Shown: piece after piece, positions 586 through 43,604 of the stretch | Layout of the letters: the number at the start of each line of letters is the position of its first letter | Numbering within the stretch: position 1 is the first letter of the stretch | Source of the DNA: Candidatus Stackebrandtia excrementipullorum | GTDB lineage: Bacteria > Actinomycetota > Actinomycetes > Mycobacteriales > Micromonosporaceae | Direction of reading: 5' to 3' | Assembly (NCBI GenBank): GCA_019113825.1 | Contig: DXGR01000108.1 | Span: 1-53,337 of the forward strand | Length of the DNA stretch: 53,337 bases | Notes under the pieces: generated by a model | The model's database searches: none | Seen by the model: only the letters and a program-made list of their open reading frames with translations | What the model was told of the DNA's origin: nothing | Made by a program: the position numbers and the translations under genes

Positions 586-1743
586 CTACAGATCCACGGA
601 CAGCAGGTCAGTGAGGGAATCCGCCGTGAAGACAACCGGATTGTTGCCCATTCGTTCCACGTTGACCCGTGCTGTGAGCTCCGCCATCTTTGCGCGGTCG
701 GTGATGCCGTGCTCGACAAGATCCAACGACAAACCGCAGGCCTCTGCAAGTTCGACGAAGCGTCGACGCGCCTGAGCCGGTGAGTCGGCGTCCAACGCGG
801 ACAGAACCGCGGCCACGGCGTCGGTATGCCGCTGCACCGAAGTCCCCGGCTGCAACATCTCTTCCGTCGCGGCGGCATGTGCCTCGATGAAGTACTGAAG
901 CGTCAAAGCGACGGCGTGGCCGTGCGGAAGGCCATAGGTTTTCGTGATTCCATACGACATCGCGTGTGCGGCGGTCGTCTTCGACACGTCGATCGCGCGG
1001 CCCGCAAGGTGGGCACCGGCCGCCATACGCGTCGCCGACTCGATCGACCCCGTCTGCACGAACTCCGGCAACGCGGGTACCAACTCCGCCAACGCCGCGA
1101 CGGCATGGCCACGACTGGCCTCGTCACCACCGACCGACCAGAGGCTCTCAAGCGCCTGAGCAAACGCGTCGATACCGGACGCGGCCTTCTGATAAGGCGT
1201 CGCCGACATCGTCAAGGCCGGATCAAGAATCATCGTGTCGGGCAGCATCGCCGGCCCCGCGATCGAAAACTTGTCTTCCTCGATGTACACGACCGCAAAG
1301 TGAGTGGCCTCCGAACCCGAGCCCGATGTCGTCGGTGCCAACACGAGCCCCATGGACCGGTCCGTCACCGGCCCCCCGGCACGGATCAGCTCGTGCAGCT
1401 TCGCCTCGTCGGTCACCCCCTGATAGGCGCACAACAATTTCGCCATGTCCATGGCGCTCCCGCCACCGACTCCCACCACGACGTCGGGCTGCACTTCCTC
1501 GACCAGGCGCAGCCCTTCGATCAGGTCCAGCGCGTCGGTGTTGGCCCGGAATTCGCTCCAACGCCTGACCGCCGCCGTCTTCACCAGTTCGGGCAGGCAC
1601 CCGGCCGCACCCGATGCCTCGAACGCATGCCGACCACACACCAGCAGGACACGTTTCGCATCAAGCTCGGCAACCACGGCGGGCAGTTTCGCGACCGCAT
1701 TCTCCCCGAAGCGGACATCACGGTCGGTGGGCAGTACGGACAT
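586..1743 (-). CDS. iron-type alcohol dehydrogenase, probable phosphonoacetaldehyde reductase
   Basis: The 385-residue protein belongs to the group III (iron-containing) alcohol dehydrogenases. In this setting it should reduce phosphonoacetaldehyde to 2-hydroxyethylphosphonate with NAD(P)H, as the PhpC-type enzymes do. Visible motifs are the cofactor loop GVGGGSAMDMAK (91-102), APTTSGSGSEAT (136-147) and the metal region D192, H260 and H274. The second classical metal ligand, a His four residues after the Asp, is Gln196 here (GIDAFAQALES). The start at 1743 has AAAGGAG six bases upstream; a longer start at 1761 lacks such a site. The gene is last in the operon pepM-ppd-dehydrogenase, 75 bases after ppd. 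The pathway role rests on context; the family is certain. An aminotransferase giving 2-aminoethylphosphonate is absent, which favours the alcohol product. Confidence 0.87.
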   Translation of the reverse strand: MSVLPTDRDVRFGENAVAKLPAVVAELDAKRVLLVCGRHAFEASGAAGCLPELVKTAAVRRWSEFRANTDALDLIEGLRLVEEVQPDVVVGVGGGSAMDMAKLLCAYQGVTDEAKLHELIRAGGPVTDRSMGLVLAPTTSGSGSEATHFAVVYIEEDKFSIAGPAMLPDTMILDPALTMSATPYQKAASGIDAFAQALESLWSVGGDEASRGHAVAALAELVPALPEFVQTGSIESATRMAAGAHLAGRAIDVSKTTAAHAMSYGITKTYGLPHGHAVALTLQYFIEAHAAATEEMLQPGTSVQRHTDAVAAVLSALDADSPAQARRRFVELAEACGLSLDLVEHGITDRAKMAELTARVNVERMGNNPVVFTADSLTDLLSVDL

Positions 1744-1818
1744 GAGGCTCCTTTGTGACATGCGACGGATGTCGTGGCAGGACGGACAAGCCGTCATGCC
1801 ACGACATCACGATGGTAT

Positions 1819-2943
1819 TCAGTCCAACGCCGCCATGAACGCCGCCTTGCTCTCGGCGGGCGTACGGGTCGGGCGGCCGATGTCGGCCCGGTTACCGGGT
1901 TTGACCTTCAGCTCCAGCAGTGCCGGGCCACCGTGCTCGCGCAGCGCGGCAACCTGCGCCGGCAGCGACTCCAGGTCATCGGTCGCCGCGGCGTAGCGGT
2001 ACCCCAGCGCCTTGGCTGCGGCCGGAACGTCGACCTTGTCGATCGAGGTCGGTTGTCCCCCCACACTGTCGTGGACACCGTTGTTGAACACGACGTGGAA
2101 ATAGTTGCCCGGCGCGTGGTCGGCGATCACCGCCAACGTGCCCAGGTGCATGAGGAATGCACCGTCGCCGTCGAAGCACCAGACCTCGCGGTCGTGGTCG
2201 GCTTTGGCCACACCCAACGCGATCGAACTGGCGTGGCCCATGCCTCCCACGGTCAAGAAGTCGCGGTCGCCGTTCAAATCGTTGTCGGCGCGGTACTCGA
2301 ACAGTTCACGGCTGAGCATGCCCGTCGTCGCGACGACGGCGGCGTCGTTACCGACGGCCTTCGTCAACGCGATCAAGGCGTCCTCGCGCGACGGCAGCGA
2401 CGATTCGACCTTCGGCAGTTTCGCCGCATCCGAAAACGTGCCCTTCTCGACCAGCAGGACGTAGGGGCTCGACTTCGCCACCGCCTCGGCCAGCGCCTCC
2501 TCAACGAGCTTCTCGGCCTCATCGGGATCGTGCGGCAGAACCGACCACGGCAGATCCATCGCCTCGACCAGTTCACGCTGGACGCGTCCCTGCTTGACGT
2601 GCTGTGGCTCGTCCTTTACGCCCGGCTGTCCACGCCAGCCCACCACGACGAGCATGGGAATGCCGTAGACGTCGGAGTCGGCCAGGCTCAGCAACGGGTT
2701 CACGATGTTGCCGTAACCGGAGTTCTGCAAGTACACGACCGCCGGTGTCTTCGTGCGCAGGTAGTGGCCGATGGCCAGACCGACCGCGCCACCCTCGTTG
2801 GCCGCGATGACGTGTTGCTCGCGAGGGAGGGTCGCCATGATGTGGCTCCCCAGCTGCTTCAGCAGACTGTCGGGGACACCGGTGTACAGGGTCACTCCCT
2901 GCGCGCTCAGGTGCTCGCAGAAACGCTTCGGATCGACACTCAC
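1819..2943 (-). CDS. ppd: phosphonopyruvate decarboxylase
   Basis: This 374-residue thiamine-diphosphate enzyme decarboxylates phosphonopyruvate to phosphonoacetaldehyde, the step that pulls the unfavourable PEP mutase equilibrium forward. It has the two-domain layout of short ThDP decarboxylases: an N-terminal PYR domain with the cofactor-activating Glu in [13 protein letters not shown] and a C-terminal PP domain with the Mg/ThDP motif running from [10 protein letters not shown] to FNNGVHDS. The length matches the family. It starts with GTG at 2943 and overlaps the pepM stop codon by four bases (GTGA), so the two are translationally coupled. The [10 protein letters not shown] segment and neighbouring genes separate it from sulfopyruvate decarboxylase. 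Confidence 0.93.
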
Positions 2944-4250
2944 GATTCGTTCTCCGGGATGATCGCCAGGGCCTCTTTGATGTTGGCGATCTGAGAGTCG
3001 ACCTCGGCGGAACGGCCGTTCTCCAAAATCGACGTCGCCACGCTCGCCATGGCCTTGTAGGAGGCGCGCATCAGCTGGTTGGCATAGATGACGATGTTCA
3101 CGCCGCGCTTGGCGAACTCCGCTTCGGTCACGGTGTTGTAGCTGGTGGGGACGACCACCAGGGGAACCCGCTTCTCGAACTTTGCGAACCGGTCGCAGAA
3201 TTCGAAGACCTCGTCGGGCTGCTTCTGACGCGAATGGATCATGATGCCGTCGGCGCCGCCCTCGATGTAGGCCTTCGCCCGGGTGACGGCGTCCTCCATG
3301 CCCTGCTCCAGGATCAGGCTTTCGATCCTGGCGATGATCATGAAGTCCTTGGTGATCTGTGCCTTCTTGCCGACCTGGATGCGGTGCACGAAGTCCTCGA
3401 TCGAGGACTGGGTTTGCGCGACCCCGGTGCCGAACAGGGAGTTGCGTTTCAGACCCTCCTTGTCCTCGATGATGACGGCCGAGGCGCCCAGACGTTCCAG
3501 GGATCGCACCGTGTACGAGAAGTGCTCCGGTTTGCCGCCGGTGTCGGCGTCGTAGATGAGCGGCTTGGTCGTGACCTCGAAGATGTCGTTGATGGTCTGC
3601 AGCCGCGAGTTCAGGTCGACCAGCTCGATGTCGGGCTTACCGCGTGCCGTCGAGTCCGTCAACGACGACGACCACATGCCGTCGAACTCGACTTTGCGGC
3701 CGTCGTGTTCAGCAGCGGTGTTCTCGATGATCAGGCCCGTCAAGCCGCTGTGGGACTCGAGGATCCGCACCAGGGGCTTGTTTTCGATGAGGCGACGCAG
3801 TCGCGACAGTCGGACGTCGGGGGTCGTGCCGACCTCCTTCACCGACTTGTTCAGCTGTGTCGAGGAGATGCCGGCGGTGTAGGGAACCTCGACGAGTTCG
3901 CCGTCCCACTCGGCCAGCGCATCGATGACCCGTTGCCGGGTCTGCGCCTGGACACCGGTTTTCCAGTCGTCACCGTGAACCACATACCGTGGCTTGAGCT
4001 CCCGAAGGTTCGCGACGTAGTCGAGAGTCTCCTGCGGCACCACGGCCGTGACGCCTTTGATGTTCTCCACGACCGCGCGACGCTGATCGAACGTCATGTG
4101 GGGAAGACGTTTATAGCTGGCGATCGCAGAGTCGGTCAGCAGACCGATCGTCACGTCACCGAGCTCGGCGGCACGCTGCAGAATGTTGATATGGCCGGGA
4201 TGGACGAGGTCGGCGCTCATCCCCACGTAGACGGTGGGCTTGCTCGACAA
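2940..4250 (-). CDS. pepM: cytidylyltransferase-PEP mutase fusion
   Basis: This 436-residue fusion protein has two enzymatic domains. Residues 1-135 are a TagD/glycerol-3-phosphate cytidylyltransferase-type domain with HPGH at 17-20 and the C-terminal signature TAGISSTQL (126-134, usually RTxGIST). Residues 145-430 are a PEP mutase with YDADTGG (233-239) and the diagnostic [10 protein letters not shown] (262-271), which separates mutases from isocitrate-lyase relatives. It converts PEP to phosphonopyruvate. By analogy with known CMP-phosphonate pathways, the N-terminal domain probably attaches CMP to a phosphonate, here plausibly 2-hydroxyethylphosphonate. The start is TTG at 4250 with AAGGAGAG upstream; the next ATG would remove the first beta strand. 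It is first in the three-gene phosphonate operon. The nucleotidyl substrate is inferred. Confidence 0.93.
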
Positions 4251-4819: not shown

Positions 4820-5110
4820 GTGAAGAAAACACTCCTGCGCACCACTACGGCTGCGGCAGCCGCCGTCGGCCTACTCTTCCCCGCCCAAGCCGCACCCCCC
4901 TTCTCCGGTGAGGTCGTCTGCGGGATGACCGGCGTGTACGAGAACTACGACGATTTCGGTTTTTCCGGTCACCTGGGAGTAGCCCGACAGGGCGATCAGC
5001 TGACCGTCGCCGGAGGCTACGGCAACGCCTGGAACGTCCAGCTCGACTCCGGATCGTTGGCCGGCACCGTCGGCTGGATCTCAATCGACTGCGTCGGCGC
5101 GAACGTTTAA
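4820..5110 (+). CDS. small secreted protein, unknown function
   Basis: The 96-residue product has a textbook signal peptide (MKKTLLRTTT, Ala-rich core, cleavage near AQA-AP) and a mature part of about 70 residues. The mature part is rich in Gly, aromatic residues and short beta-like segments, with two cysteines (EVVCGM and SIDCVGANV at the very end) that could form one disulfide bridging both ends. It starts with GTG at 4820 after AAGGAA. It lies alone between two leftward operons and ends in front of a hairpin shared with the converging operon. I do not recognise a family. Its position beside the phosphonate operon may be incidental. Confidence 0.72.
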   Translation: MKKTLLRTTTAAAAAVGLLFPAQAAPPFSGEVVCGMTGVYENYDDFGFSGHLGVARQGDQLTVAGGYGNAWNVQLDSGSLAGTVGWISIDCVGANV

Positions 5111-5219: not shown

Positions 5220-6872
5220 TTACCGGAAGCAGTCGCGGGCGGCGTCCAAAAACGCGTTCTCGTAATCGGCCGGATTGAACTCACCCATGTAGTACTGCTT
5301 CATCTTGTGTCGGGCGTGCGCCAGCGGGTCGGTGTTGACCAGTTGAATGAAAACCTGCTCGATGTTGTCGCCGGTACGGTCCACCGGGTAGGCGGCCTGC
5401 GCCAACGGGAACTCGGCGGCGAGCGCGTCGCCGGCGCCCGTCATATCGGTGATCGCGAACGGTTTCTCCGAGAACAACCAGTCCGAGGCCGCCCCGGACA
5501 CGTCGCACACCATGACGTCGGCGGCGTTGATGCAGTCGACCAAACTCATCTGATCCGAGGTCGTTCTGCCGTACTTGTGCAAACGACCCGTCTGCGCCGA
5601 GTCAGCCGCCAGCAACTGCTCGACGGCGTCGAGTTGACGGGCGGCGGCGGGGTTGCGTCGCGTATACGGATGCGGACGAACGATCACGGTCATGCCGCGG
5701 TCGATGGCGGCTCGACAGATGCGGTCGGCGATGGGCAGGGAACAGAAGTTGGCATCCGACGACAACCCCGTCCATGTGGGCGCATACAGCAGGACAGGCG
5801 GCCGGTCGACCGGCCGCGGCCGGATGGACACGTCGACTCGGGCGGCCTGCGGGTGCCCGACGATGCGGAACTTTTCGGTCGGGATATCGATGCCGTGCCG
5901 GTGATACCGGTCGATACCGGCCTGCCCGGCAACGAAAATCCGGTCGTACATGGCACTGATCGGGTTATAGCTGGCCGGTTTGTCACTGTCACCGTGCATG
6001 AGTTGCACGTGCGTGTACTCGGCGAACCGTACGCACTGCGTGTTCTGCATGCTGTTGTTGACGTAGAACACGGCTTTGATGCCGTCGACGAAGATCGTCT
6101 GAACGTCGGTGATGCCGGGCGCGACGATGCACGGCGCGCTGGTGGCCGCCGCCATCGTCGGCAAGAACGCCTTATCCCGGAGGATGACGACGTACGGGTC
6201 ACCGATCCGGTCGAAATACGGCAGCCACATCAACAACTGGTATTCGGAACCGGGGGGCGCGGCGAAGTGAACGGCGAATCGTGGGGCGTGGTCACCGACC
6301 GCGTCGACGACGCCGCGGTCCCCGGAATGCGGGTGACGACGACGCAGGTACCAGGCCACCACCGTGCTGCCCGCGCAGCACGCGGTCGCCAGGACACAGG
6401 CCACGGCAATGATCCACGGGGTGACACCGGTGACGGCGGTTCCCCAGAACCCGACGGTCAGCGCCGATATCAGGAGGTACGCGCTACGCGCATTGACCAG
6501 TTTTTCGGCCGGACCACGTTGTACCCCGAGGTTTGCCGTGGCAAGTCGACGCGTGGACAGTGCCACAAGAAGCCGTGGTTCGAACGCGATGAGGGCGAGT
6601 AGAAGGACACCTGCGACGGCTTCGGGGACACCGATACCGTCCGGCTGAGCGTCGGCCATGTTGATCAACAGCGCGGCGACGACGAGGACTCGGCCGAGCT
6701 GAAACTCGCCGAGCCCGTCGGCTCTCCATCGCCACCCGCCCCACGCCAGGGTGGCGGCGGTCAGGATGTAACCCAACCACGGGCCCGGCACCAGCAGGAA
6801 CGCGGCGATGGCTGCGACGGGAAGCCCGTACGGCAGTGCCGTCGAGGCGAGTTTGGTGATCAGTTGGCGCAT
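5220..6872 (-). CDS. TagF-like CDP-alditol (or CMP-phosphonate) polymerase, membrane-bound
   Basis: The 550-residue protein has several hydrophobic segments over residues 15-175 and a C-terminal CDP-glycerol glycerophosphotransferase-type domain. Family motifs are HGDSDKP from H293 (acceptor/catalytic His region), YAPTWTGL near 363, VIVRPHPYT, and DVSGAASDWLFSEKPF near the end. Such enzymes move an alditol-phosphate unit from a CDP carrier to a growing chain on the inner membrane face. The start is ATG at 6872, overlapping the upstream cytidylyltransferase gene by 13 bases. It is last in an operon with a CDP-alcohol phosphotransferase and a TarI-like enzyme, so it probably uses the product of one of those, or CMP-activated phosphonate from the neighbouring operon. 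A paralogue is at 34343-36340. Donor specificity cannot be read from sequence. Confidence 0.85.
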   Translation of the reverse strand: MRQLITKLASTALPYGLPVAAIAAFLLVPGPWLGYILTAATLAWGGWRWRADGLGEFQLGRVLVVAALLINMADAQPDGIGVPEAVAGVLLLALIAFEPRLLVALSTRRLATANLGVQRGPAEKLVNARSAYLLISALTVGFWGTAVTGVTPWIIAVACVLATACCAGSTVVAWYLRRRHPHSGDRGVVDAVGDHAPRFAVHFAAPPGSEYQLLMWLPYFDRIGDPYVVILRDKAFLPTMAAATSAPCIVAPGITDVQTIFVDGIKAVFYVNNSMQNTQCVRFAEYTHVQLMHGDSDKPASYNPISAMYDRIFVAGQAGIDRYHRHGIDIPTEKFRIVGHPQAARVDVSIRPRPVDRPPVLLYAPTWTGLSSDANFCSLPIADRICRAAIDRGMTVIVRPHPYTRRNPAAARQLDAVEQLLAADSAQTGRLHKYGRTTSDQMSLVDCINAADVMVCDVSGAASDWLFSEKPFAITDMTGAGDALAAEFPLAQAAYPVDRTGDNIEQVFIQLVNTDPLAHARHKMKQYYMGEFNPADYENAFLDAARDCFR

Positions 6873-7591
6873 GAGAGTGTCCTGTCCCGCAGCAGCGACT
6901 CGGCGAACCGCAGGTCCACCGGATGGGTGACCTTGAGATTGAACTCCCCGCCTTCGATCACCGCGACGGGGATCTCCGGAAGGTAACGCCTGACCACGCC
7001 ACCGTCGTCGGTGGGCGTGAACTCGGGGTCGGCGGCGGCGGCCTCGTGGGCACGGGCCAACACGTTCAGCCGGAAGCCCTGTGGGGTTTGGCAACGCCAC
7101 ATCCGTGACCGGTCGGGGATATCGATCACGGTTGGTGGTGAGGTGGTGGAGTCGACGTCCAGAACGGTGTCGGTGCTGGGTACGGCAACCGTCAGGGCCG
7201 ATACCCGGTCCAGGAGTTCGACGCATCGCGTGATCGTTTCGGGGTCGACGAGGGGCCGTACGGCGTCGTGCAGGAGGATCTTGCGGTCGTCGGGTTCGTC
7301 GACGAGATCGGCCAGGGCGTTGCGTACCGAACCGGCCCGGTCGGTGCCGCCGACACCCACGTGGTCGAGTTTGCGGTAGTCCTGTCTGCTGAGGATGTCC
7401 ACGGCGGTCGCGATGTGGTCGGCGGGAAGATACACCCGAATGCGGTCGATGTCTTTGCAGGCTTCGAACACGTCGACGGTGTGCGCGAGAAGCGCCTTGC
7501 CCGCCACCGTCAAGAACTGTTTCGGGGTTTCGGTTCCCATACGAGTGCCCGTCCCCCCTGCCAACAGCACGGCGACGGCCGGCGGTGTCAC
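6860..7591 (-). CDS. TarI/IspD-family cytidylyltransferase
   Basis: The 243-residue single-domain enzyme opens with LLAGGTGTRMG and PKQFLTVAGK, the CTP-binding loop of the IspD/TarI group, and carries LLHDAVRPLV, IPDRSRMWRCQTPQGF and TDDGGVVRRY. It transfers CMP to a sugar-alcohol phosphate (ribitol 5-phosphate in TarI) or to methylerythritol phosphate (IspD). The setting between a CDP-alcohol phosphotransferase and a TagF-like polymerase favours a teichoic-acid-type substrate over isoprenoid synthesis. It starts at GTG 7591, overlapping the previous stop by four bases (GTGA), and overlaps the next gene by 13. Its closest relative in the window is the N-terminal half of the protein at 32892-34346. 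Confidence 0.87.
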   Translation of the reverse strand: MTPPAVAVLLAGGTGTRMGTETPKQFLTVAGKALLAHTVDVFEACKDIDRIRVYLPADHIATAVDILSRQDYRKLDHVGVGGTDRAGSVRNALADLVDEPDDRKILLHDAVRPLVDPETITRCVELLDRVSALTVAVPSTDTVLDVDSTTSPPTVIDIPDRSRMWRCQTPQGFRLNVLARAHEAAAADPEFTPTDDGGVVRRYLPEIPVAVIEGGEFNLKVTHPVDLRFAESLLRDRTLSCAN

Positions 7592-8460
7592 GAGGTCCTC
7601 AGCTGACGGTCGACGTCCACCGCCGACAGATACAGCTTGTAGGTCACCGCGCCTTCGACCAGCAGCAACAACACGATGGAGGCGACGGTGACGCCCAGGA
7701 CGGCGGTGGACAGGGGCGCGACGATGAACACGGCCATCTGGAACTCCACACCGGAGAACAGGTGTGATCGGACACGGTGCCGCACGAGGAAGTCGCGCAT
7801 GCGTGTGAACCAGCCGAACCGTTGTTTGAAGGACTGTTGGACGTCGACGACGGTCGCCGAATCGTCCTTACGGGTCGAGTCGTCCTCCAAGACGAGCTGT
7901 GCCTCGTCTTCCAGCTGCATCCGGTCGACGGTGGTGCCCTGGGCCGCGGCGAGTTTGGTGCGCATGCCCTGACGGGTCTCTTTCAGGTACAGGGCGTTGA
8001 GGTAACGGAACATGTCGCAGAAAACGACGCCGGTGCCCAGGTAGAGAAAGACCGCGTTGCCGGTGGCGACGTACTGGCCGCCGAACAGGGCGAGGGTGCA
8101 CCCGAGGACCCGGACACGGTCGAGGATGTAATCGAGCCAACCACCGAACAGCGAACCACCGCCGCGCAGGCGGGCCAGTTTGCCGTCCATGCAGTCGAAG
8201 GTGAAGCTCAGGTGAAACAGGAGTGCCCCGATCGCCAACATGGTCCAACTGTTGTCGGAGTGGCCTGCGAGCCAGAACAGTACCGCCGAGGCGATACCCA
8301 GGATGAACGCTCCGACGGTGAGGACGTTGGGAGTGACCCATCGCCACGCTGAAACCAGCCACAGCAGGCGTCCGGCCAGCGGGTCCACGAGAAACACCGT
8401 CCACCAGGAGTCACGTTCCTTGTAGGTGGACAGGATCTGAGCCCGGGTTACGCGTTCCAC
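7588..8460 (-). CDS. CDP-alcohol phosphotransferase, integral membrane
   Basis: The 290-residue membrane protein carries the complete family signature D-G-x2-A-R-x8-G-x3-D-x3-D in the stretch beginning DGKLAR and ending WLDYILD. The four Asp bind the metal ions that position the CDP-alcohol. These enzymes displace CMP and join the phospho-group to an alcohol. A TM cluster surrounds the motif; a hydrophilic loop (LEDEAQLVLEDDSTRK) precedes two C-terminal TM helices. The GTG start at 8460 has AAGGAG upstream; extra upstream residues in the open frame look non-coding. It is first in the operon with the TarI-like and TagF-like genes. The substrate may be CDP-alditol or CMP-HEP. Ordinary phospholipid synthesis is less likely given the operon. 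Confidence 0.87.
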   Translation of the reverse strand: MERVTRAQILSTYKERDSWWTVFLVDPLAGRLLWLVSAWRWVTPNVLTVGAFILGIASAVLFWLAGHSDNSWTMLAIGALLFHLSFTFDCMDGKLARLRGGGSLFGGWLDYILDRVRVLGCTLALFGGQYVATGNAVFLYLGTGVVFCDMFRYLNALYLKETRQGMRTKLAAAQGTTVDRMQLEDEAQLVLEDDSTRKDDSATVVDVQQSFKQRFGWFTRMRDFLVRHRVRSHLFSGVEFQMAVFIVAPLSTAVLGVTVASIVLLLLVEGAVTYKLYLSAVDVDRQLRTS

Positions 8461-8694
8461 TGGTCTCCTTGAGGTCAGCAGGGGACGGCCGACATTATCA
8501 ATCAGCCGATATGGGGCACACCGCACTACCGTCACCGGAACGTAATCTGCTGGTCGCCGCCGCGACACCCAGTTCACCGTGTCACATGCGTGGCGAAGGT
8601 GGCATTATGAACTCACACCATCTGGCTTTCGACAACGCTCAATGCGTAAAGTCGAGCCGAGTTCCCGGCCGATACGAAGCGACTTGAGAAGGCG

Positions 8695-9453
8695 ATGCAC
8701 CAAGAACCCATCATCGAGGCTCAAAACCTCGGCGTCCGTTTCACCGTCGGCCGCAGGCGTAAGGCCCGCCTCCGCGAGATGTTCATTCACCGCGGTAAAC
8801 GTACCGTGCAGCAGGCCGATGACTTCTGGCCGTTGCGTAACCTGAGTTTTCAGATCCAGCCCGGCGAAGCCGTCGGAGTCATCGGCTCCAACGGAACCGG
8901 AAAGTCGACCCTCCTGCGGTTGATCGCGGGCGTTTTGTTGCCCGACGAGGGCCGTGTGATCCGGCAGGGCAAGGTGGCGCCGTTGATCGCCCTGTCCGCG
9001 GGGTTCTCCGGTGACCTGACCGGCAGGGAGAACGTGCACCTGGTGGCGTCGCTGCACGGCATGAGTCGTCAGACGATGAAGGCGAAGTTCGACGAGATCG
9101 TTGCGTTCGCCGAGGTGGAGGACCACATCGACACCCCGGTCCGTCACTACTCCTCCGGGATGAAGGTACGTCTGGGCTTTTCGGTGATCTCGCAGCTGGA
9201 GCACCCGATTCTGCTGGTCGACGAGGCCTTGGCCGTAGGTGACAAACGTTTCAAAAAGAAGTGTTACAAGGTGATCAGGTCGCTGCTGGACGAAGGCCGC
9301 ACGTTGGTCCTGGTCTCTCACAGCGAACGCGACCTCACCCGGTTCTGCACTCGCGGCCTGTACCTCAACCGCGGGGAACTGCAGGTTGACGGCACCGTGG
9401 AGGAGGCTCTGGCCGCTTACCAGCACGTCGAGGATCAGAAGGTGCCGGTCTGA
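8695..9453 (+). CDS. polysaccharide/teichoic-acid ABC exporter ATPase (TagH/Wzt type)
   Basis: The 252-residue ATPase has Walker A GSNGTGKST, the exporter-type signature HYSSGM in place of LSGGQ, Walker B ILLVDEAL and the switch SHSE. The YSSGM signature is typical of Wzt/TagH proteins that export O-antigens, capsules and teichoic acids. It lacks the C-terminal carbohydrate-binding extension of long Wzt proteins, so recognition probably lies elsewhere. No permease is adjacent; the only matching ABC-2 permease in the window is at 40983-41849. The gene starts with ATG at 8695 behind GAGAAGG, is divergent from the CDP-alcohol phosphotransferase operon, and its stop overlaps the next start (TGATG). 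Confidence 0.92.
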   Translation: MHQEPIIEAQNLGVRFTVGRRRKARLREMFIHRGKRTVQQADDFWPLRNLSFQIQPGEAVGVIGSNGTGKSTLLRLIAGVLLPDEGRVIRQGKVAPLIALSAGFSGDLTGRENVHLVASLHGMSRQTMKAKFDEIVAFAEVEDHIDTPVRHYSSGMKVRLGFSVISQLEHPILLVDEALAVGDKRFKKKCYKVIRSLLDEGRTLVLVSHSERDLTRFCTRGLYLNRGELQVDGTVEEALAAYQHVEDQKVPV

Positions 9454-14435: not shown

Positions 14436-14465
14436 GAAAACTCTCAAGGGATGAAGGTGGGTCGC

Positions 14466-21492: not shown

Positions 21493-21670
21493 GGGCAGCC
21501 CTTCTATAAAGTCGCCTGGAGGGCTCAACCGTGCCGGGGTGGAGCGCGTGGAAACCGGTAACACCACTTTCGTGTACCAGTTGAACGGGTAGGAGCTCAA
21601 CCTAGCGCAACAACCCCTCGCTTCCAACCGCTACGCGGTGGCACTTGAGCGCCACCGTCGGGAGTCAAGA

Positions 21671-24921: not shown

Positions 24922-25393
24922 CGGCACGTATCGCGCCGGTCGACCACGTCAAAGTGCCCTCCCGTCGGCATGTTCTCGCCGGTCGCCCGGCGAATCCGGT
25001 CACGGGTGGGCGCCCACGGCGGGGCCACGTGTTCCTCCGAGGGACGGTGATCGACCGGCCAGGAAGCGGGTGGCGGCACTACGTACTATGCGTGGAAGGT
25101 TGTCTTTGAACTTCGTTCATCGTGAGCGGCCGTTCGGGCGGATGTGTCCTAAGGCGAAGAATGTCGGGCATCCCGGTGCCGAACGCAGGGCCTTCGAGGC
25201 GCCGTCTGAACACCGCGCCTCACAACCGCGAGTCGAGGGACCGCTTCGGAGTCGAACGCTTGACATCTGAAGGGCTGTTCGCGAACTCGATTCGTGGCGC
25301 GCGGCGGTTCGAGTGGATGCCTCGTCAAACGGAGAAGGTCGTATACACAGCGGTTCGCAGACAGCCTATGAGGTACCAGCATGGAAAGGCGCT
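24922..25393. other. intergenic stretch before the bifunctional glycosyltransferase
   Basis: About 470 bases without a convincing gene. The open frames crossing it have Arg-rich, random-looking translations. It interrupts an otherwise tight rightward gene set, so it probably contains a promoter. A TTGACA at 25260-25265 is the best -35 candidate, but I see no matching -10. Confidence 0.4.
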
Positions 25394-32847: not shown

Positions 32848-32895
32848 ATGGGATCCCTCACTACCACCCCCGCGGTAGTGCCCGAATTTCGATGA
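32848..32895 (+). CDS. putative 15-residue leader peptide coupled to the CDP-ribitol gene
   Basis: An ATG at 32848 with AGGAG six bases upstream opens a 15-codon frame (MGSLTTTPAVVPEFR). Its stop TGA overlaps the start ATG of the next gene (ATGA at 32892-32895). The downstream gene has no ribosome site of its own, so its translation may depend on reading this leader. It is not rich in any single amino acid, which argues against classical attenuation and for simple coupling. Alternatively the large gene could be initiated in another way and this frame is accidental. Confidence 0.5.
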   Translation: MGSLTTTPAVVPEFR

Positions 32896-37052: not shown

Positions 37053-39197
37053 ATGACGTATTTGAGTCGGCCAGATGAGGTTTCCGGCGGCACGGGCGGG
37101 ATAGCGCGTCGGCCGCTGCTGTTGAGTGCTGCGGGGGTCGCCGCGGCGGCCGCGCTGTCGGGCTGCATGGACCGCGCGGAATCGGCCCGGTCCGAGGACG
37201 CGGCGGGTCGGCGGGCCACTCACATGCAGATCATCGCTCATCCCGACGACGACTTTTACTTCTTCAACCTGGATCTGGCTCGAGCTTTGGAGGACGGGCA
37301 CCGCATTGTGACGGTGTGCCTGTTGGCGGGTGAAGCCGACGGGAAGAACCTGGCTCGCAAGGAACCCGAGTGGGAGTCCACGCCCACCGATTACGCCGGC
37401 TACGCGGCCGCTCGTTTCACCGGCGCCCGCCGCACCTACGCGGAGATGGCCACCGGGGACACGACGGCCGAGTGGAAACGTGAGGCCGTCGAGATCTCGA
37501 ACCTCATGCGAGCGGAGAAGGCAACGCTCGTCGACAACCCCGACGTCATTCTCCTGTACTTGAGCCTCTTCGAAAACGGTAAGCACTCCGGCTCCGGTGA
37601 AAATCGACGCATCAGCGACCTGTGGAACGGGAAGGTGACGGATCTGCCGACGCTTCCGTTGACCAACGGCACCGTCGCCGAGACCGTCGCCCTCACTCGC
37701 GAGGACCTCATCGGCACCATCGTGCACCTGCTCGACGAGTACCGGCCCGATGTGGTCCGGATCATGGACGCCGACCCCGACCCTCAGCTGCACGACGCCG
37801 ATAATCCGCAGTTCGCCGAGCAGGACGGTTACTCCGACCACATCGACCACACCGGTACCGCGTGGTTCGCGGCCGGCGCGTTGGCGCGGTGGCTACCTGA
37901 CGCCGGCGATGCGAAGGTCATCGCCTACCGCGGCTACTACAACCAACGCTGGCCGAGAAATCTGAGCCCGCAGGCGCGTCAGGAGAAGGGTCGATATCTG
38001 GACACATACGCGTGGGCGGACAAGGCCGACTGCGGTGACCCGGTGGGCTGCGGTGATGGGAAACTTCCCGCCGACGGTGTCGGGAAACGCTACGGGGGCA
38101 GCACGATCCAACGTCATCAGGGCGCGGACCCGTCCCTGGTGTTGAATCACGAGGGCGATATCCAGGCCGCGACGGTCGTCAACGGGCATCTGCGAATCGT
38201 CACGGGTGATCCCACGACGACCGGTTCGTGGCGGGCGCGTGATTTCGCGCGTGACCTGCCGTTGTTGCCGCACACCAGCGCCGTCGTCGACAACGACGGC
38301 CGCCTCACCGTCGCGGCGGTCGAGTACGTCATCGGCGGTTCGCCGTCGGAGCACGTCCGCAACGTCGTCGTCGCGCAATGGGCTCGCGGTGACCATGACG
38401 ACGTCTCGTGGCACGAGCTTGGGAACCCTGCCGAAGCCGGTACGAAGGATGTTCGTGACCTGGGTACCCCTCAGCTGATCGTCGCGTCCGACGGCAACCG
38501 CATGCTGTTCAGCCGTAACCACGACAAGGGGTTGTCGGCGCGCATGGAACGAGACGACGGCGGGTGGACCGACTGGATCGACCTCGGCGGGGAGAACACG
38601 CAGGACGGTCTCACCGCGATCGTCGACCACGCCGACGAGTCGGTGAAACTGTTCGCGGCGGCCTCCGACGGAATCCGCATGTGGCGGGTCGTCGACGATC
38701 AGACCCACTCCACTCACCTGCTGTCCATGGATCCACCGGCGGGGCCGGTGACCGCGGTATCGGACCGTAACGGTCGCATCGTGGTCATCGCGCGGCAGGC
38801 GGGAACATCGGCGATCGTGCTCTATCAACGTCCCGGCCCAAAGGCCGAGTGGGTTCGTTCACCCGTCGTGTTGGGCGGCAACGGTGGTATCGACCAGGTG
38901 CCCGCGATCATCCCGCGGGCGTGGGAAACGAACATCGGACTGTTGCATCGCGGTGACGACGCCCGCATGCACTTCACGTTCATGAACTATGCGGGCCTGG
39001 AAACCAATACGGCGTCGACACAACCGGCCTGGCAGGGCTCGGGGCCACGGTTCCAACGGCAACCGTCGATGATCTTGGACCGCAGGGGCCGAATTTTCGC
39101 CATGGCCACCGGCATGGACGGTTTGCTGTACGGGACGCATCAACACAGCCCGGGAACCGGCGACCTCACCCCGTGGCGGCGACTGTTCGTGCGCTGA
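37053..39197 (+). CDS. exported PIG-L (LmbE) deacetylase with C-terminal repeat domain
   Basis: The 714-residue product has an Arg-Arg signal (ARRPLLLSAAG) with a lipobox-like LSGC at C38. A PIG-L deacetylase domain follows (about 55-330) with the zinc motif AHPDDDFYFF (H63, D65, D66) and the second motif SDHIDHTGTA. The C-terminal 370 residues have repeated short beta segments with W and DG turns (LRIVTGDP, RMLFSRNHDKG, RMWRVVDD), consistent with a propeller or tectonin-like repeat that may bind sugar. Family members remove N-acetyl groups from GlcNAc-containing substrates. In this locus it may trim amino sugars of the wall polymer after export. No ribosome site is visible before the ATG. 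Confidence 0.87.
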   Translation: MTYLSRPDEVSGGTGGIARRPLLLSAAGVAAAAALSGCMDRAESARSEDAAGRRATHMQIIAHPDDDFYFFNLDLARALEDGHRIVTVCLLAGEADGKNLARKEPEWESTPTDYAGYAAARFTGARRTYAEMATGDTTAEWKREAVEISNLMRAEKATLVDNPDVILLYLSLFENGKHSGSGENRRISDLWNGKVTDLPTLPLTNGTVAETVALTREDLIGTIVHLLDEYRPDVVRIMDADPDPQLHDADNPQFAEQDGYSDHIDHTGTAWFAAGALARWLPDAGDAKVIAYRGYYNQRWPRNLSPQARQEKGRYLDTYAWADKADCGDPVGCGDGKLPADGVGKRYGGSTIQRHQGADPSLVLNHEGDIQAATVVNGHLRIVTGDPTTTGSWRARDFARDLPLLPHTSAVVDNDGRLTVAAVEYVIGGSPSEHVRNVVVAQWARGDHDDVSWHELGNPAEAGTKDVRDLGTPQLIVASDGNRMLFSRNHDKGLSARMERDDGGWTDWIDLGGENTQDGLTAIVDHADESVKLFAAASDGIRMWRVVDDQTHSTHLLSMDPPAGPVTAVSDRNGRIVVIARQAGTSAIVLYQRPGPKAEWVRSPVVLGGNGGIDQVPAIIPRAWETNIGLLHRGDDARMHFTFMNYAGLETNTASTQPAWQGSGPRFQRQPSMILDRRGRIFAMATGMDGLLYGTHQHSPGTGDLTPWRRLFVR

Positions 39198-39408: not shown

Positions 39409-40821
39409 TCAGCTGCGTCCCATGCCCCGGTACTCCCAGCCGGCGTTACGCCACAGCTGCGGGTCCAGAGCGTTCATACCGTCGAGAATGCGGCGGTGGC
39501 TGACGATGTCGCCCAACGCCGCCGGGTCCAGGTGACGGAACTCTTCCCACGGAGTCAAGACGCAGACCAGGTCGGCGCCCTCAACGGCCTCCGACAGCGG
39601 CTTCGCGTAGTTGAGTTCCGGTTGCGCGGTCCGTGCGTTGTCGATGCCCTTCGGGTCGTACACGGTGACGGTGGCGCCGGCGTTGCGGAGCCTACGCGCG
39701 ATGTCCAGCGCCGGCGAGTCCCGAATGTCGTCGGTGTCGGGTTTGAACGTCGCACCCAGCACGGTCACGTGTAGACCCTCCATGCGAGCCCCCGCCGGTC
39801 CGACGTCACGCCCGCACAATTCCGCTGCGATCGTCACCGCGCGGGTCCGGCGACGAGTGTTGACCTCGTCGATCTCGGCGAGGAACCGCAGCGACTCGCC
39901 CACGCCCAACTCCTGGGCGCGCGACGCCAGCGCACGCAGGTCCTTGGGAAGACAGCCGCCGCCGAAGCCGATACCGGCCCGCAGGAACTTCTGCCCGATG
40001 CGTTCGTCGTGGCCCATGGCGCGAGCCAGCGCGGTGACGTCACCACCGGCGACCTCACACAGGTCGGCCATCGCGTTGATGTAGGAAATCTTGGTCGACA
40101 GGAAAGCATTGGAGGCGACCTTGACCAGTTCGGCGGTCGCGAAGTCGGTGACGACCAACGGGACGTCGCGGTCCTCCTGCGCCGCCAACTCGAACACGCC
40201 TTTGTGTGCCGCCTGGAGAAGCTGCTGCGCCCATTCGCTCTGGGCGGCCAGGACGACTCGGTTGGGGCGCATCACGTCCTGAACGGCGTTCGACTCCTGG
40301 AGGAACTCCGGGCTCCACGCGACCTCGACGTCGACGCCGTCGGAGGTGTGTTGGTCGATGAGTTGCTGAACCCACGAGGACGTGCCGACCGGCACGGTCG
40401 ACTTCCCGACGATGATGCACTGACGGGACAGCCGCGGCGCCAGACTTGTCACGCACGATTCGAGGTAGGACAGGTCCGCCGAGTTCGAGTCGGGGCGCGA
40501 CGGTGTCCCCACGCACAGGAAGTGGACATCCCCGAATTCGGCGACCTCGTCGATGTCAGTGGTGAACCGGAGTCTCCCGTTGGCGAGGTTCTTGGTGAGT
40601 AGCTCGTCGAGCCCACGCTCGTAGAACGGCAACTGCCCGTCGTTGAACTTCGAGATACGGCCTTCGTCGATGTCGTAACCGAGCACCTCGTAACCGAGCT
40701 CCGCGTAACAGGCGGCATACGTTCCGCCCAACGGCCCCACGCCCAAAAACGTGAGCCGGGGCCGGGTGACACCCGACGTGATGATCGATTCCGCGTCATT
40801 GGGGAGATTGGTGCTGCGCAT
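39409..40821 (-). CDS. ugd: UDP-glucose 6-dehydrogenase family enzyme
   Basis: The 470-residue NAD-dependent dehydrogenase has the full three-domain pattern: N-terminal Rossmann fold, VGTPSRPD loop, STVPVGTS, KVASNAF lysine motif, catalytic C290 in GFGGGCLPKDL and C-terminal GATFKPDTDDIRDSP. It would oxidise UDP-glucose (or a close relative) to the uronic acid. The cofactor loop is GVGPLGG (27-33) in place of the usual GxGYVGL, which keeps the GxGxxG spacing. The start is ATG at 40821. It follows the ABC permease gene by 161 bases in the same direction, so it may be in the same operon. The open frame continues upstream only by chance. Confidence 0.88.
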   Translation of the reverse strand: MRSTNLPNDAESIITSGVTRPRLTFLGVGPLGGTYAACYAELGYEVLGYDIDEGRISKFNDGQLPFYERGLDELLTKNLANGRLRFTTDIDEVAEFGDVHFLCVGTPSRPDSNSADLSYLESCVTSLAPRLSRQCIIVGKSTVPVGTSSWVQQLIDQHTSDGVDVEVAWSPEFLQESNAVQDVMRPNRVVLAAQSEWAQQLLQAAHKGVFELAAQEDRDVPLVVTDFATAELVKVASNAFLSTKISYINAMADLCEVAGGDVTALARAMGHDERIGQKFLRAGIGFGGGCLPKDLRALASRAQELGVGESLRFLAEIDEVNTRRRTRAVTIAAELCGRDVGPAGARMEGLHVTVLGATFKPDTDDIRDSPALDIARRLRNAGATVTVYDPKGIDNARTAQPELNYAKPLSEAVEGADLVCVLTPWEEFRHLDPAALGDIVSHRRILDGMNALDPQLWRNAGWEYRGMGRS

Positions 40822-40982: not shown

Positions 40983-41849
40983 TTACAGCTCTTTGAGCAC
41001 GGCCGGTTCCATCTTGTAGAACAGCCAGCGGCCGAAGAACAGGATGAAGACACTGAATCCGACCGAGACGCCCACCTGTAGCCAGCTGGCGGTGATCTCG
41101 GGGATCCAGGCGGAGCGGTGCAGCTGCATGATCCCGACAAACGGGTTGAACTGGTACAGCGTCTGCGCCCATCCGGCGATCGGGCTGTCGGCGCCGACGA
41201 CCTTCTCCAACGGGTAGATGATCGGGCTGCCGTAGAAGAGGCACCGCATCACCAGCCGCATAAACCGTTGTACGTCCCGGTAAAGCACGTTCACCGAAGC
41301 GAGGATGAACGACAAACCTGTCAGAATCATGAACTGCAGGACAATGGCGAACAACATGTTCACGGTGTGCAGCCCGAAGTGTCCGTTGAACAGGACGACG
41401 AACAACAGCAGGATCGGGACGCCCGCCAAAAACTCGGCGAACCGCGCGAACACCCGGGCGACCGGGAACACCTCGCGAGGAACCCGCATCGTGGTGATGA
41501 GCGTCGACTGCGACGTCAACGAGGTGCTGGACTCGGTCATGGCGGAGCTGATCCACATCCAGGCGAAGATGCCGGACACGATGTACAGCGGGTACTCGAC
41601 GTTGCCGGGCAGGCCGCCCCGGTCGTAGAGAATGCCGAAGATGAACCAATAGATCGCCGCCAGGCCCAACGGCTCGATCAACGACCACAGGTACCCCATG
41701 ACGGTGGCCTGGTATTTGACTGCGAGGTCACGGCGCACCAAAACCGTCAACGGCTGGCGGTGCCGCCACAGTGCGGCCAGACCCGTCGTTTTGGGAAAGA
41801 TCCGTTTGGGCGGGGCGGTGGGTGGTGTGGTGGGGCTAGTCGAGGTCAT
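40983..41849 (-). CDS. ABC-2 polysaccharide/teichoic-acid export permease (TagG/Wzm type)
   Basis: The 288-residue membrane protein has a cytosolic Pro-rich start and an amphipathic LVRRDLAVKYQATVMGYLWSL, the hallmark of TagG/Wzm permeases. Six TM helices follow (IYWFIFGILYDRG, PLYIVSGIFAWMW and others). It forms the channel for exporting lipid-linked polymers. Its ATPase is not adjacent, and the best partner in the window is the one at 8695-9453. It starts at ATG 41849 and overlaps the G1P dehydrogenase stop by 14 bases. The operon thus links polymer export with glycerol-phosphate precursor supply. Confidence 0.92.
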   Translation of the reverse strand: MTSTSPTTPPTAPPKRIFPKTTGLAALWRHRQPLTVLVRRDLAVKYQATVMGYLWSLIEPLGLAAIYWFIFGILYDRGGLPGNVEYPLYIVSGIFAWMWISSAMTESSTSLTSQSTLITTMRVPREVFPVARVFARFAEFLAGVPILLLFVVLFNGHFGLHTVNMLFAIVLQFMILTGLSFILASVNVLYRDVQRFMRLVMRCLFYGSPIIYPLEKVVGADSPIAGWAQTLYQFNPFVGIMQLHRSAWIPEITASWLQVGVSVGFSVFILFFGRWLFYKMEPAVLKEL

Positions 41850-42891
41850 CTACGAAATCCGTAATCCTTGCGCGCAAAGCGGAAACGTCTAGATTCAGGT
41901 GCTCCAGAATGGTGTACCTGCCGGGCCTGGTGCGCGGCGCATAGGCGACCGCAGCGGCGAACTGCTCCACAGTAAGCCCTATATCGGAAGGCGTGCGCGG
42001 CAGGGCATGCCGCTTCATCACCGCGGCCATCTCCGTAAACAACGCGTTATCGCCGCGCAAACGGGTGGCGAACAGTCCACCGATACCGACTTGTTCTCCA
42101 TGCGTGGCCACCCCGGGGTGAAGCTCCTCGACCGCGTGCGCGATCTCGTGGCAGGCGCCGCTGCAGGGAAGCGATGTTCCGGCGATCGCCATGGCGGTCC
42201 CGCCCAGGACGAGCGCGTTGGCGAGGGTCTCCAAAAAGTCGTTGTCGGCGATCGTGCCGGGGTGACGCAGGACCGCTTCGGCGCCGCTGCGCGATATCGC
42301 GACCGCCAACCCGTCGATGGCCTCGCCGGTGGCGGCATGGCTGAGCTGCCAATCGGCTGTCGCGCACAGGTTCGATATGGCGTCGCCGACACCGGAACGC
42401 AATTGCCGGGCGGGGGCGCGCCGCACGAAGTCCAGGTCGACGATGACGGCGATCGGTATGTGAGCGCCGTAGGAGATGGAGTGCCCGTCACGTTCCAACG
42501 ACGCCACGGGCGAGGCTATGCCGTCGTTGGCGAGACTGGTCGCCACGGCGACCATGGGAAGTCCCTGCTGAAACGACGCGTACTTGACCGTGTCGATGAG
42601 GCGGCCGCCGCCGATGCCGACGACGGCGTCGAAATTCCGGGTCTTGAGTTTGTCGGCCAAGGCGAGGGCGTCGGCGTGACTTCCCGCGGTGGCGGTGATG
42701 ATCTCGGCTCGGCTCAGACTCTTGCGAGCCTCTTCCGCCGCTTCACGTCCGATGCCGGGGCCGACGACGACCGCGACCTCCCCGCCGGCGGAGATGCGCT
42801 GATCGGCGAGAAGGTCTCCCAGATGTGACATCGCACCCGCGTGAACCTCGACGATCAACGGGCTGGGAACGGTCCGGGCTAGCAGCGGCAT
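41836..42891 (-). CDS. sn-glycerol-1-phosphate dehydrogenase (AraM/EgsA type)
   Basis: The 351-residue enzyme belongs to the dehydroquinate-synthase-like superfamily. It has the NAD(P) loop GIGGGRLIDTVKYAS (92-106), the G1PDH signature SLANDGIASPVASL (119-132) and metal-ligand motifs GVGDAISN (D170), SGACHEIAHAVE and ATHGEQVG. It reduces dihydroxyacetone phosphate to sn-glycerol 1-phosphate, the mirror image of the usual bacterial glycerol 3-phosphate. It starts at ATG 42891 behind GGGAGG and overlaps both neighbours (nucleotidyltransferase upstream by 13 bases, permease downstream by 14). The coupling suggests glycerol 1-phosphate is activated and exported in a polymer. A related alditol-phosphate dehydrogenase activity is possible. 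Confidence 0.87.
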   Translation of the reverse strand: MPLLARTVPSPLIVEVHAGAMSHLGDLLADQRISAGGEVAVVVGPGIGREAAEEARKSLSRAEIITATAGSHADALALADKLKTRNFDAVVGIGGGRLIDTVKYASFQQGLPMVAVATSLANDGIASPVASLERDGHSISYGAHIPIAVIVDLDFVRRAPARQLRSGVGDAISNLCATADWQLSHAATGEAIDGLAVAISRSGAEAVLRHPGTIADNDFLETLANALVLGGTAMAIAGTSLPCSGACHEIAHAVEELHPGVATHGEQVGIGGLFATRLRGDNALFTEMAAVMKRHALPRTPSDIGLTVEQFAAAVAYAPRTRPGRYTILEHLNLDVSALRARITDFVDDLD

Positions 42892-43604
42892 GCAACCTCC
42901 CGGGCGACCGCGAGGTCGGCATGGTCGTCGACCTCGACCCATTCGACGTCGCCGATGGGGACGGCGTGCATACGCCCGGACGGCGCCAACCGCTGGAACG
43001 CGTCTTCGTAGTACAGGTTCGGGTCGTCCCGCCAGGTGGCCTCCAGGGCCGCGGTCAGGTCGTCGGCGATCGAGGCGTCCAGTCGAGCGACCCCGATGTA
43101 TTCACCGTAGGCCGACGCGACCGGCATCTGCTTGGTGACGAGGCCGACCACGCCGTCGTCGTCGCACTGAAGCTTCATGGCTTCGTCGGTGAGGGTCTTC
43201 ACCGAGTCCGTGGCCAACAGGATGCCCTCCTGTGACGCAGACAGCAGCAGTTTCTCGACCGAGTCGGGGTGAACGGTGTCACCGTTGACCAGGAGGGCGC
43301 CGTCGGCGTACACGTAGCGGGCATGCCACAGTGAGTAGGCGTTGTTCCAGTCGACCCGGTCGTTGTGAATAAGGTGAACCGGAAGGTTGTATCGCTTCGA
43401 CATGGCGTCGACACGGGCTTCGATCGCCTCGGCGGCGTACCCGACGACCACGGACGCGTCGGTGACACCGGCGGCGGCGAGGTTACGCAGCGCGATGTCG
43501 AGGATCGTGGTGTCACCGTCGACCGGCAACAGCGTCTTGGGCAGGTTGTCGGTGTCCGGCCGCAGCCGTTGTCCTTGGCCTGCGGCCAATACCACACCAC
43601 GCAC
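42879..43604 (-). CDS. LicC-like nucleotidyltransferase (CDP-alcohol/sugar synthase)
   Basis: The 241-residue single-domain enzyme starts with VVLAAGQGQRLRPDTDNLPKTLL, the intact NTP loop. It carries DWNNAYSLWHARY and ALLVNGDTVH, close to phosphocholine cytidylyltransferase (LicC) and inositol-1-phosphate cytidylyltransferase proteins. It should activate a phospho-alcohol with CTP; since the next gene makes glycerol 1-phosphate, that is the most economical substrate. It starts at GTG 43604 with AAAGGAG upstream and heads the operon containing the dehydrogenase and ABC permease. A sugar-1-phosphate nucleotidyltransferase role cannot be excluded. Confidence 0.85.
   Translation of the reverse strand: MRGVVLAAGQGQRLRPDTDNLPKTLLPVDGDTTILDIALRNLAAAGVTDASVVVGYAAEAIEARVDAMSKRYNLPVHLIHNDRVDWNNAYSLWHARYVYADGALLVNGDTVHPDSVEKLLLSASQEGILLATDSVKTLTDEAMKLQCDDDGVVGLVTKQMPVASAYGEYIGVARLDASIADDLTAALEATWRDDPNLYYEDAFQRLAPSGRMHAVPIGDVEWVEVDDHADLAVAREVACRC

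Follow-up and report, generated by a model that had tools for sequence, protein, structure and literature searches.

Contig DXGR01000108.1 of Candidatus Stackebrandtia excrementipullorum, analyzed here over its whole length (the window, 53,337 bp), carries phosphonate biosynthesis genes adjoining tagF1, a gene encoding a protein related to the teichoic acid polymerase TagF. This contig (C93) belongs to a 4.17-Mb genome assembled in 149 contigs (64.5% GC). Its base 1 lies 585 bases beyond the adh gene and, because the window is one complete contig, the gene set may extend beyond that end. A preliminary description of this DNA had placed here a phosphoenolpyruvate (PEP) mutase, a phosphonopyruvate decarboxylase (Ppd), an alcohol dehydrogenase (ADH), two TagF-like proteins, two cytidine diphosphate (CDP)-alcohol phosphotransferases, a CDP-ribitol-synthase-like protein, an ATP-binding cassette (ABC) exporter and glycosyltransferases. 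All of them were recovered with Pfam, against which 40 window proteins were scanned, and NCBIfam. The coexistence of phosphonate and teichoic-acid-type genes stands, with the addition of two cytidylyltransferases that had been overlooked: a domain fused to the PEP mutase PepM, which makes the latter Fom1-type, and a stand-alone IspD-type enzyme (Table 1).

The phosphonate core and the TagF-like protein

PepM displays an N-terminal PF01467 cytidylyltransferase domain ahead of its PEP mutase domain (Pfam). Residues 3-139 match the PDB chain 5x3d_A (E = 2e-67), from an entry titled phosphoenolpyruvate phosphomutase, which we take to be the cytidylyltransferase (CyTase) domain of Fom1. The score of the protein against TIGR02320, 408.9 bits, exceeds the cut-off of 319.55, and its sequence harbors EDKXXXXXNS, the PEP mutase motif (PMC6697681, cited here, as the other papers, from its accessible text). 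Over 434 residues, PepM is 71% identical to its counterpart in locus L072 of Streptomyces wedmorensis. A FomB kinase match (561 bits, cut-off 400) marks the latter as a fosfomycin locus, in agreement with its B12-radical-SAM, HTH-cupin and FomD-like proteins (84.6 bits for FomD, under the cut-off of 320). Ppd reached 435 bits with TIGR03297 (cut-off 312.5) and shares 62.5% identity with its S. wedmorensis counterpart. The top NCBIfam match of the iron-containing ADH was the phosphonate-linked TIGR03405 (173 bits, under the cut-off of 423.7), with 50% identity to the homologue of the fosfomycin locus. The three genes thus resemble those for Fom1, Fom2 and FomC in domain composition and order. 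The most likely start of pepM is the TTG at 4250, preceded by AAGGAGAG; conservation with the orthologues begins there, the 11 PepM orthologues having been trimmed at that point before comparison, so that their own starts are not part of it.

The CyTase domain of Fom1 has been shown experimentally to make CMP-2-hydroxyethylphosphonate (CMP-HEP; CMP, cytidine monophosphate) (PMC6697681). Given the Fom1-type fusion and the homology of the three proteins to fosfomycin-cluster Fom1, Ppd and ADH, CMP-HEP is therefore the expected product, which the window very probably makes. As judged by strong homology to characterized enzymes, PepM would convert PEP into phosphonopyruvate, which Ppd would decarboxylate into phosphonoacetaldehyde; the ADH would then form HEP, and the fused cytidylyltransferase domain would convert it into CMP-HEP. 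Unlike L072, the window has a TagF-like gene, and no Fom3-, FomD- or epoxidase-type match (radical SAM, DUF402, HTH-cupin) was found among the 40 proteins scanned, for which reason the fosfomycin branch is not expected. Conversely, no PF04464 or LicD match was found within the flanks examined of L072, nor in those of locus L069 (Streptomyces viridochromogenes).

TagF1 and the product of a second gene, tagF2, are the sole above-cut-off matches to PF04464, the family of TagF, in the assembled genome; a third match, on contig C143, remained under the cut-off. TagF1 scores 31.4 bits (gathering cut-off 22.1) over profile positions 193-290 of 367 only. The gene most likely starts at 6872, where the matches to relatives G004, G066 and G083 begin, and overlaps the end of the stand-alone ispD. 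A sequence search with a longer reading of 668 residues matched no PDB chain. An AlphaFold model built from six sequences had a mean predicted local distance difference test (pLDDT) score of 74.3, with values under 50 around the HGDSDK motif (residues 273-286 and 291-315); RPHP and DVSG motifs are also present. In Foldseek, the top 12 rows were TagF chains (E 2e-7 to 6e-6, TMq 0.35-0.40, root-mean-square deviation (rmsd) 9.5-10.8), the best match being TagF 3l7l (E = 2e-7, rmsd about 10 Å), and TarL with CDP-ribitol (8va1) was also matched. TagF1 belongs to the family of TagF and TarL, which are also its best, if loose, structural matches, and differs from them by the approximate quarter of the profile that is matched, by an identity of 11-13% in these structural matches and by additional N-terminal membrane-type helices.

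A residue mark for CMP-HEP users was sought in D-x-S-G, present in many pepM-linked PF04464 proteins, and was rejected, IspD-linked relatives without pepM sharing it. The classical motif at this position is D-Y-S-S, which is carried by a large Glycomyces TagF described below.

TagF, LicD proteins and CDP-alcohol phosphotransferases have in common that they use the phospho-alcohol moiety of a CDP-alcohol. CMP-HEP is a donor of the same kind, with a C-P bond, and TagF1 is therefore proposed to transfer HEP. Just as TagF uses glycerol phosphate from CDP-glycerol, TagF1 would move HEP from CMP-HEP to a hydroxyl group of a surface polymer, while the neighboring glycosyltransferases would build the glycan and the split ABC transporter would export it. 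We assign a probability of about 0.58 to this reading, in which the operon makes and uses CMP-HEP and TagF1 is the HEP transferase to a surface polymer. Fusion, core and gene order were read directly from the DNA; the transfer step is suggested by this gene order, by the less firm fold and by family chemistry, and donor, acceptor and export are predicted.

Conservation of the tagF1-pepM neighborhood

Among 200 genomes of the family, the full fusion was detected at an identity of at least 74% in 12, the window's own and 11 others; seven further genomes in which only the mutase part matched (35-41% identity) were left out of this count. In eight of the 11 relatives (G004, G046, G066, G098, G123, G014, G147 and G083), the first gene detected upstream of pepM was a tagF1 homologue in the same orientation; small intervening genes are possible there, as in the window. 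This linkage covers three genus groups, and the window strain falls in the same group as G066. The search for pepM beside TagF-like genes proposed in the preliminary description thus had a positive outcome, here and in the distant phyla considered below. The gap between tagF1 and pepM is shorter in these eight relatives than in the window.

In Glycomyces sp. NRRL B-16210 (G098, locus L055), the run consists of tagF1-pepM-ppd-adh only, and few window sugar genes were matched in the stretch. A search with the two window IspD proteins (E 1e-12) revealed no IspD-type gene less than 6 kb from the pepM-linked tagF in this genome, nor in G123, G147 and G014. In these four genomes the donor made next door would thus be CMP-HEP, which favors reading TagF1 as a HEP transferase. 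In the four same-genus relatives examined, cdpOH1-ispD-tagF1 precedes pepM, and CDP-alcohol phosphotransferase 1 and the ABC ATPase keep the same place. Relative G046 carries two tandem tagF1 genes adjoining pepM and, within 26 kb of the latter, homologues of the GT4 glycosyltransferase, the PIG-L protein, the UDP-sugar dehydrogenase, the glycerol-1-phosphate-dehydrogenase-like protein and the nucleotidyltransferase, an arrangement that supports both ends of the window gene set as one locus.

On the far side of the core, the Glycomyces loci L055 (13674-21130) and L056 (13648-21154) encode TPR-LicD proteins and a GT2-TagF fusion of 1147 residues, so that a second TagF-type gene and a LicD-type set flank the operon in both. 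In L055, the PF04464 domain of the fusion is almost complete (E = 1e-103). The fusion was considered as the off-contig continuation of the window locus; no such protein was found in this assembly and the G004 stretch gave partial glycosyltransferase matches only, and the idea was dropped for the window strain. G066 and G054 do carry a large GT2-TagF fusion (39-40% identical).

The pairing was then surveyed across phyla. A scan of one genome per species yielded 386 fusion loci, the best 80 of which were analyzed; they are mutually related, with flanks of unequal length, and genome sizes were rounded to 0.1 Mb. Their common core is pepM-ppd-adh. PF04464 and LicD were searched in all 80 genomes and then mapped onto the locus stretches. 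Matches with a frame length more than 2 codons off the listed length were dropped as lying on another contig, and split matches were counted singly; this filter also removed at least one true LicD match, cut by the end of L055. PF04464 was found within the locus stretch in 35 of the 80 loci, LicD in 22 and either of them in 51. The 1.27 Mb near the core, out of 307 Mb, contain 42 of the 91 PF04464 matches (0.38 expected; 34 of 79 when L053-L057 are left out) and 25 of the 56 LicD matches (0.23 expected). The slot following adh was defined by a match on the strand of pepM, 2.0-3.1 kb past it, and was assessed in the 64 of the 80 loci whose stretch extends 4 kb or further downstream. It is occupied by PF04464 in 23 of these 64 loci and by LicD in six, and the position directly upstream of pepM by PF04464 in 7/59 and LicD in 2/59. 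The 23 include Bacteroidales, Ignavibacteria, Gammaproteobacteria, Rhodobacteraceae, Desulfobacterales, Kiritimatiellae, Sulfurimonas and a euryarchaeal metagenome-assembled genome (MAG). Together with the two window proteins, 31 neighbors formed one linked group at E 1e-3 and 13 groups at 1e-30, tagF1 and its kin being apart from the other neighbors at 1e-10. The pairing of PF04464 with the core is a strong association, not proof; the PF04464 and LicD proteins adjoining the same core in other phyla are candidates for the job proposed for TagF1.

CDP-alcohol phosphotransferases were rejected as a general partner. In the genomes of the 27 loci where all four PF04464/LicD positions are empty, 98 PF01066 matches were listed; 31 have coordinates inside a locus stretch, and four of these fitted the frame, in three loci (L091, on each side; L070; L121, 5.7 kb off). 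A CDP-alcohol phosphotransferase follows the Fom1-ppd-adh core in L091 (13557-14357, Desulfuromusa) and L070 (14660-15520, Nonomuraea), making this a third CDP-dependent family near the slot after adh. Loci L106, L116 and L124 belong to archaeal MAGs (two Methanomassiliicoccaceae and one Euryarchaeota) with a Fom1-like fusion, ppd and adh, for which a binning error is possible; in L124, PF04464 genes flank the core on both sides.

Other genes of the locus and alternative readings

The remaining genes of the set are listed in Table 1. The listed open reading frame (ORF) of the UDP-sugar dehydrogenase reaches 41688 and overlaps the permease gene. Between the two gene blocks, the LTD-endonuclease, M23, TetR and NmrA genes at 11619-19542 have no evident pathway role; the first, coding for a protein with LTD and endonuclease/exonuclease/phosphatase domains (11619-14447), is found at the same place in G004 and G066. 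Nor is the small ORF on the opposite strand, in the gap between tagF1 and pepM, expected to take part in the pathway. A polysaccharide lyase family 8 gene (43898-46387) adjoins the locus. Further on, a subtilase (S8) gene (49089-50222) sits between the ribosomal protein genes L10 and L1, a gene group that is usually tight.

Table 1. Genes of the phosphonate and surface-polymer locus, with coordinates in the window
Feature	Coordinates	Strand	Evidence
Fe-ADH (PF00465), FomC/PhpC-like phosphonoacetaldehyde reductase, expected HEP maker	586..1797	-	E=1.2e-33
Ppd, phosphonopyruvate decarboxylase, Fom2-like	1819..2943	-	TIGR03297 equivalog
PepM, Fom1-like fusion, N-terminal cytidylyltransferase and C-terminal PEP mutase	2940..4250	-	PF01467 + PF13714
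Small ORF, 96 codons, signal-peptide-like start	4820..5110	+	Read by eye from sequence
TagF1, 550 residues, N-terminal membrane-type helices and C-terminal PF04464, proposed HEP transferase	5220..6872	-	
Stand-alone IspD-type cytidylyltransferase	6860..7591	-	PF01128 E=1.9e-50
CDP-alcohol phosphotransferase 1 (cdpOH1)	7588..8577	-	PF01066 E=2.5e-13
ABC exporter ATPase	8695..9453	+	PF00005 E=3.9e-20
CDP-alcohol phosphotransferase 2 with DUF5941	9453..11543	+	PF01066 E=4.4e-9, PF19365 E=1.1e-10
TarS-like glycosyltransferase	21638..23575	+	PF00535 E=1e-35, TarS linker PF22181 E=8e-14
GT2 glycosyltransferase	25313..27844	+	PF00535 E=4.4e-25
OafA-type acyltransferase with SGNH domain	28238..30319	+	PF01757, PF19040
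GT4 glycosyltransferase	30413..32425	-	PF00534 E=4.6e-34
IspD-SDR fusion, CDP-ribitol synthase-like	32892..34346	+	PF01128 E=5.6e-46 + PF00106 E=5.4e-33
TagF2, second TagF-like protein	34343..36340	+	PF04464 E=2.2e-9
PIG-L family protein	37053..39197	+	PF02585 E=8e-11; 36% identical homologue in G046 locus
UDP-sugar dehydrogenase, start approximate	39409..40770	-	PF03721/PF00984/PF03720, residues 311-743 of listed ORF
ABC-2 permease of exporter	40983..41849	-	PF01061 E=2.6e-11
Glycerol-1-phosphate-dehydrogenase-like protein	41836..42942	-	PF13685 E=2.6e-39; NF002022 233 bits, below cut-off of 413
Nucleotidyltransferase, MobA/RmlA-like	42879..43604	-	PF12804 E=1.4e-10, PF00483

Two IspD-type genes could supply an alditol-phosphate donor. 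The stand-alone IspD narrowly passes TIGR00453, the methylerythritol phosphate (MEP) model (182.6 bits, cut-off 181.3), and remains below the cut-off of the ribitol-5-phosphate model NF001183 (144.6 bits, cut-off 166); it may be either a housekeeping MEP enzyme or a TarI-like alditol-phosphate cytidylyltransferase. On contig C114 of the same genome (L190:836-1959), ispF lies behind carD and no ispD separates the two, and a search of the assembly found no other strong stand-alone IspD than that of the window, the match on C8 being GlmU and that on C111 falling under the cut-off. The window enzyme may thus be the housekeeping one, in which case tagF1 would have no dedicated donor beside it other than CMP-HEP. 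The IspD-SDR fusion reaches 147.1 bits with the same ribitol-5-phosphate cytidylyltransferase model, also under its cut-off, and its gene overlaps tagF2. The tagF2 clade is separate from tagF1 (100/100), and an IspD-SDR neighbor was detected for four of its five members. TagF2 is likely a CDP-ribitol user and, with the IspD-SDR enzyme, may produce a distinct polymer or side chain of ribitol phosphate.

Several observations weigh against TagF1 as a HEP transferase. The structural match is loose, other GT-B enzymes ranking close behind the TagF rows, and motif comparison found no residue that marks the pepM-linked enzymes. In the window, tagF1 overlaps the stand-alone ispD, leaving a CDP-alditol donor possible in Stackebrandtia, and the small ORF separates it from pepM. 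Among the fusion relatives, G023 and G054 have no tagF directly upstream of pepM, with a TagF paralogue elsewhere in the stretch, and the G074 contig is too short to judge. Of the 200 genomes of the family, 81 have a tagF1 homologue, and the fusion is absent from 70 of these 81. In 20 further stretches, a strong IspD-SDR match lies just upstream of a tagF1-like gene in six (G003, G008, G032, G045, G103 and G180), so the ancestral donor was probably CDP-ribitol. In a 45-protein tree, the pepM-linked tagF1 do not form their own clade, unlinked paralogues being nested among them. In the survey across phyla, none of the four positions is filled in 27 of the 64 loci, a count restricted to these positions, as L070 has PF04464 and LicD matches further away. 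Finally, as the survey covered Fom1-type fusion loci only, the association may in part be a general feature of loci for phosphonates or surface glycans. In Bacteroides thetaiotaomicron, BT1716, of the CDP-glycerol glycerophosphotransferase family, lies a few genes from the 2-aminoethylphosphonate (AEP)-type PEP mutase BT1720 (PMC10434189), which also suggests a partly general association. BT1720-21, a PEP mutase and a member of the phosphocholine cytidylyltransferase family, appear in the expression tables of that paper, whose accessible text makes no remark on a link.

A single clade of pepM-linked tagF1 was considered in the tree, with one label change against the other two labeled groups (10 + 6 + 5 rows). 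A single origin is not claimed: 24 of the 45 rows are unlabeled and uncounted, 14 of them inside the same branch (87/73). The simplest reading of these sequences is that CDP-ribitol is the usual donor of the tagF1 family and that some members are paired with a CMP-HEP synthase instead.

TagF1 could instead be a conventional alditol-phosphate transferase that receives its donor from the adjoining IspD, the product being a HEP-decorated teichoic-acid-like polymer to which another enzyme, such as a CDP-alcohol phosphotransferase or LicD-like proteins beyond the contig end, attaches HEP. This would fit the cdpOH1-ispD-tagF1 order of the same-genus relatives and the tagF1 homologues found behind IspD-SDR genes elsewhere. 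It would also fit the TPR-LicD proteins and 1147-residue GT2-TagF on the Glycomyces far side, where G004 and G066 have LicD-like matches. We consider it rather unlikely in view of the four genomes with a pepM-linked tagF1 and no detected IspD neighbor, and of the possible housekeeping role of the Stackebrandtia IspD. The core shared with the fosfomycin locus might also suggest that the phosphonate genes make a small molecule and have surface-polymer neighbors by chance. The lack of radical SAM, DUF402 and HTH-cupin matches among the 40 scanned proteins, the tagF1-pepM linkage across three genus groups and the phosphonoglycans reported from this genus (PMC12723261) make this highly improbable.

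TagF being a polymerase and HEP retaining a free hydroxyl like glycerol, it is chemically conceivable that TagF1 uses CMP-HEP for polymerization, with HEP alone or in alternation with glycerol phosphate or ribitol phosphate, placing the phosphonate in the polymer main chain; the tandem tagF1 genes of G046 would suit such a role. HEP is reportedly present as ester groups on a galactose-rich glycan (Yu 2014), which stands against this quite improbable proposal. The same study is said to describe a glyceryl (2,3-dihydroxypropyl) ester of HEP and a HEP ester of a hexose, which our literature search did not confirm. In a broader formulation, PF04464 proteins would be widespread CMP-HEP-using phosphonyl transferases, recruited repeatedly beside the Fom1-Ppd-ADH core, with main-chain phosphonate in Stackebrandtia and Glycomyces, HEP replacing or alternating with alditol phosphate; we hold this to be improbable.

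TagO, TagA and TagB are the linkage-unit enzymes of wall teichoic acid. No TagO- or TagA-type match was found among the scanned window proteins, the rest of the genome not having been searched for these two, and a wall teichoic acid proper is not supported; TagB is itself a PF04464 protein, indistinguishable here from the TagF-like genes. The phosphonate-bearing teichoic acid suggested in the preliminary description is thus supported in part: phosphonate and TagF-like genes do go together, while a TagF-type gene alone is no proof of an alditol-phosphate polymer.

Relation to known systems and significance

The preliminary description presented such a product as not described, which was too strong. 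S. nassauensis is named as a phosphonoglycan producer (PMC12723261), a phosphonoglycan locus of Glycomyces sp. NRRL B-16210 is mentioned (PMC7858074), and Yu et al. 2014 is cited for the phosphonoglycans of both (PMC7858074, PMC8931226). The window has the features of a HEP phosphonoglycan locus, a pepM-ppd-adh core with surface-glycan genes, known here from genes alone. It shares this core with the Glycomyces locus, the PepM proteins being 87% identical, and differs from it by the presence nearby of the stand-alone IspD, the CDP-alcohol phosphotransferases, the IspD-SDR fusion and tagF2. The HEP-type polymer class is thus already known from this genus, and what is new is the candidate transferase step.

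This step can be compared with two known types of system. In contrast to TagF and TarL, pepM beside tagF1 replaces a dedicated alditol cytidylyltransferase in Glycomyces. As in phosphonyl tailoring of the PntC/LicD type, the phosphonate would be activated as a CMP ester, presumably before its capture by a surface glycan or lipid; PntC differs by its PF12804 domain and its AEP substrate, where the window has PF01467 and HEP (PMC6697681). The accessible text of that paper does not mention glycerophosphotransferase or CDP-glycerol (0 occurrences). Literature searches, in which subscription papers are mostly outside coverage, found nothing joining phosphonate biosynthesis with CDP-glycerol, and PMC10434189 alone for glycerophosphotransferase with phosphoenolpyruvate mutase. 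For phosphonate, teichoic acid and pepM together, they returned works on other subjects only, as judged by title.

The route by which activated phosphonates reach surface glycans was called unknown in 2019 (PMC6697681). The TagF-like neighbor of pepM provides a named, expressible candidate for this phosphonate-to-glycan step, and one that occurs in a strain which can be cultured and is known for its phosphonoglycans. The pairing is also present in bacteria from marine and sediment sources and in archaeal assemblies, and may be relevant to the HEP esters that have been reported in marine dissolved organic matter (PMC9381506). More generally, its recurrence in unrelated microbes points to candidate enzymes for attaching a phosphonate building block to cell-surface sugars.

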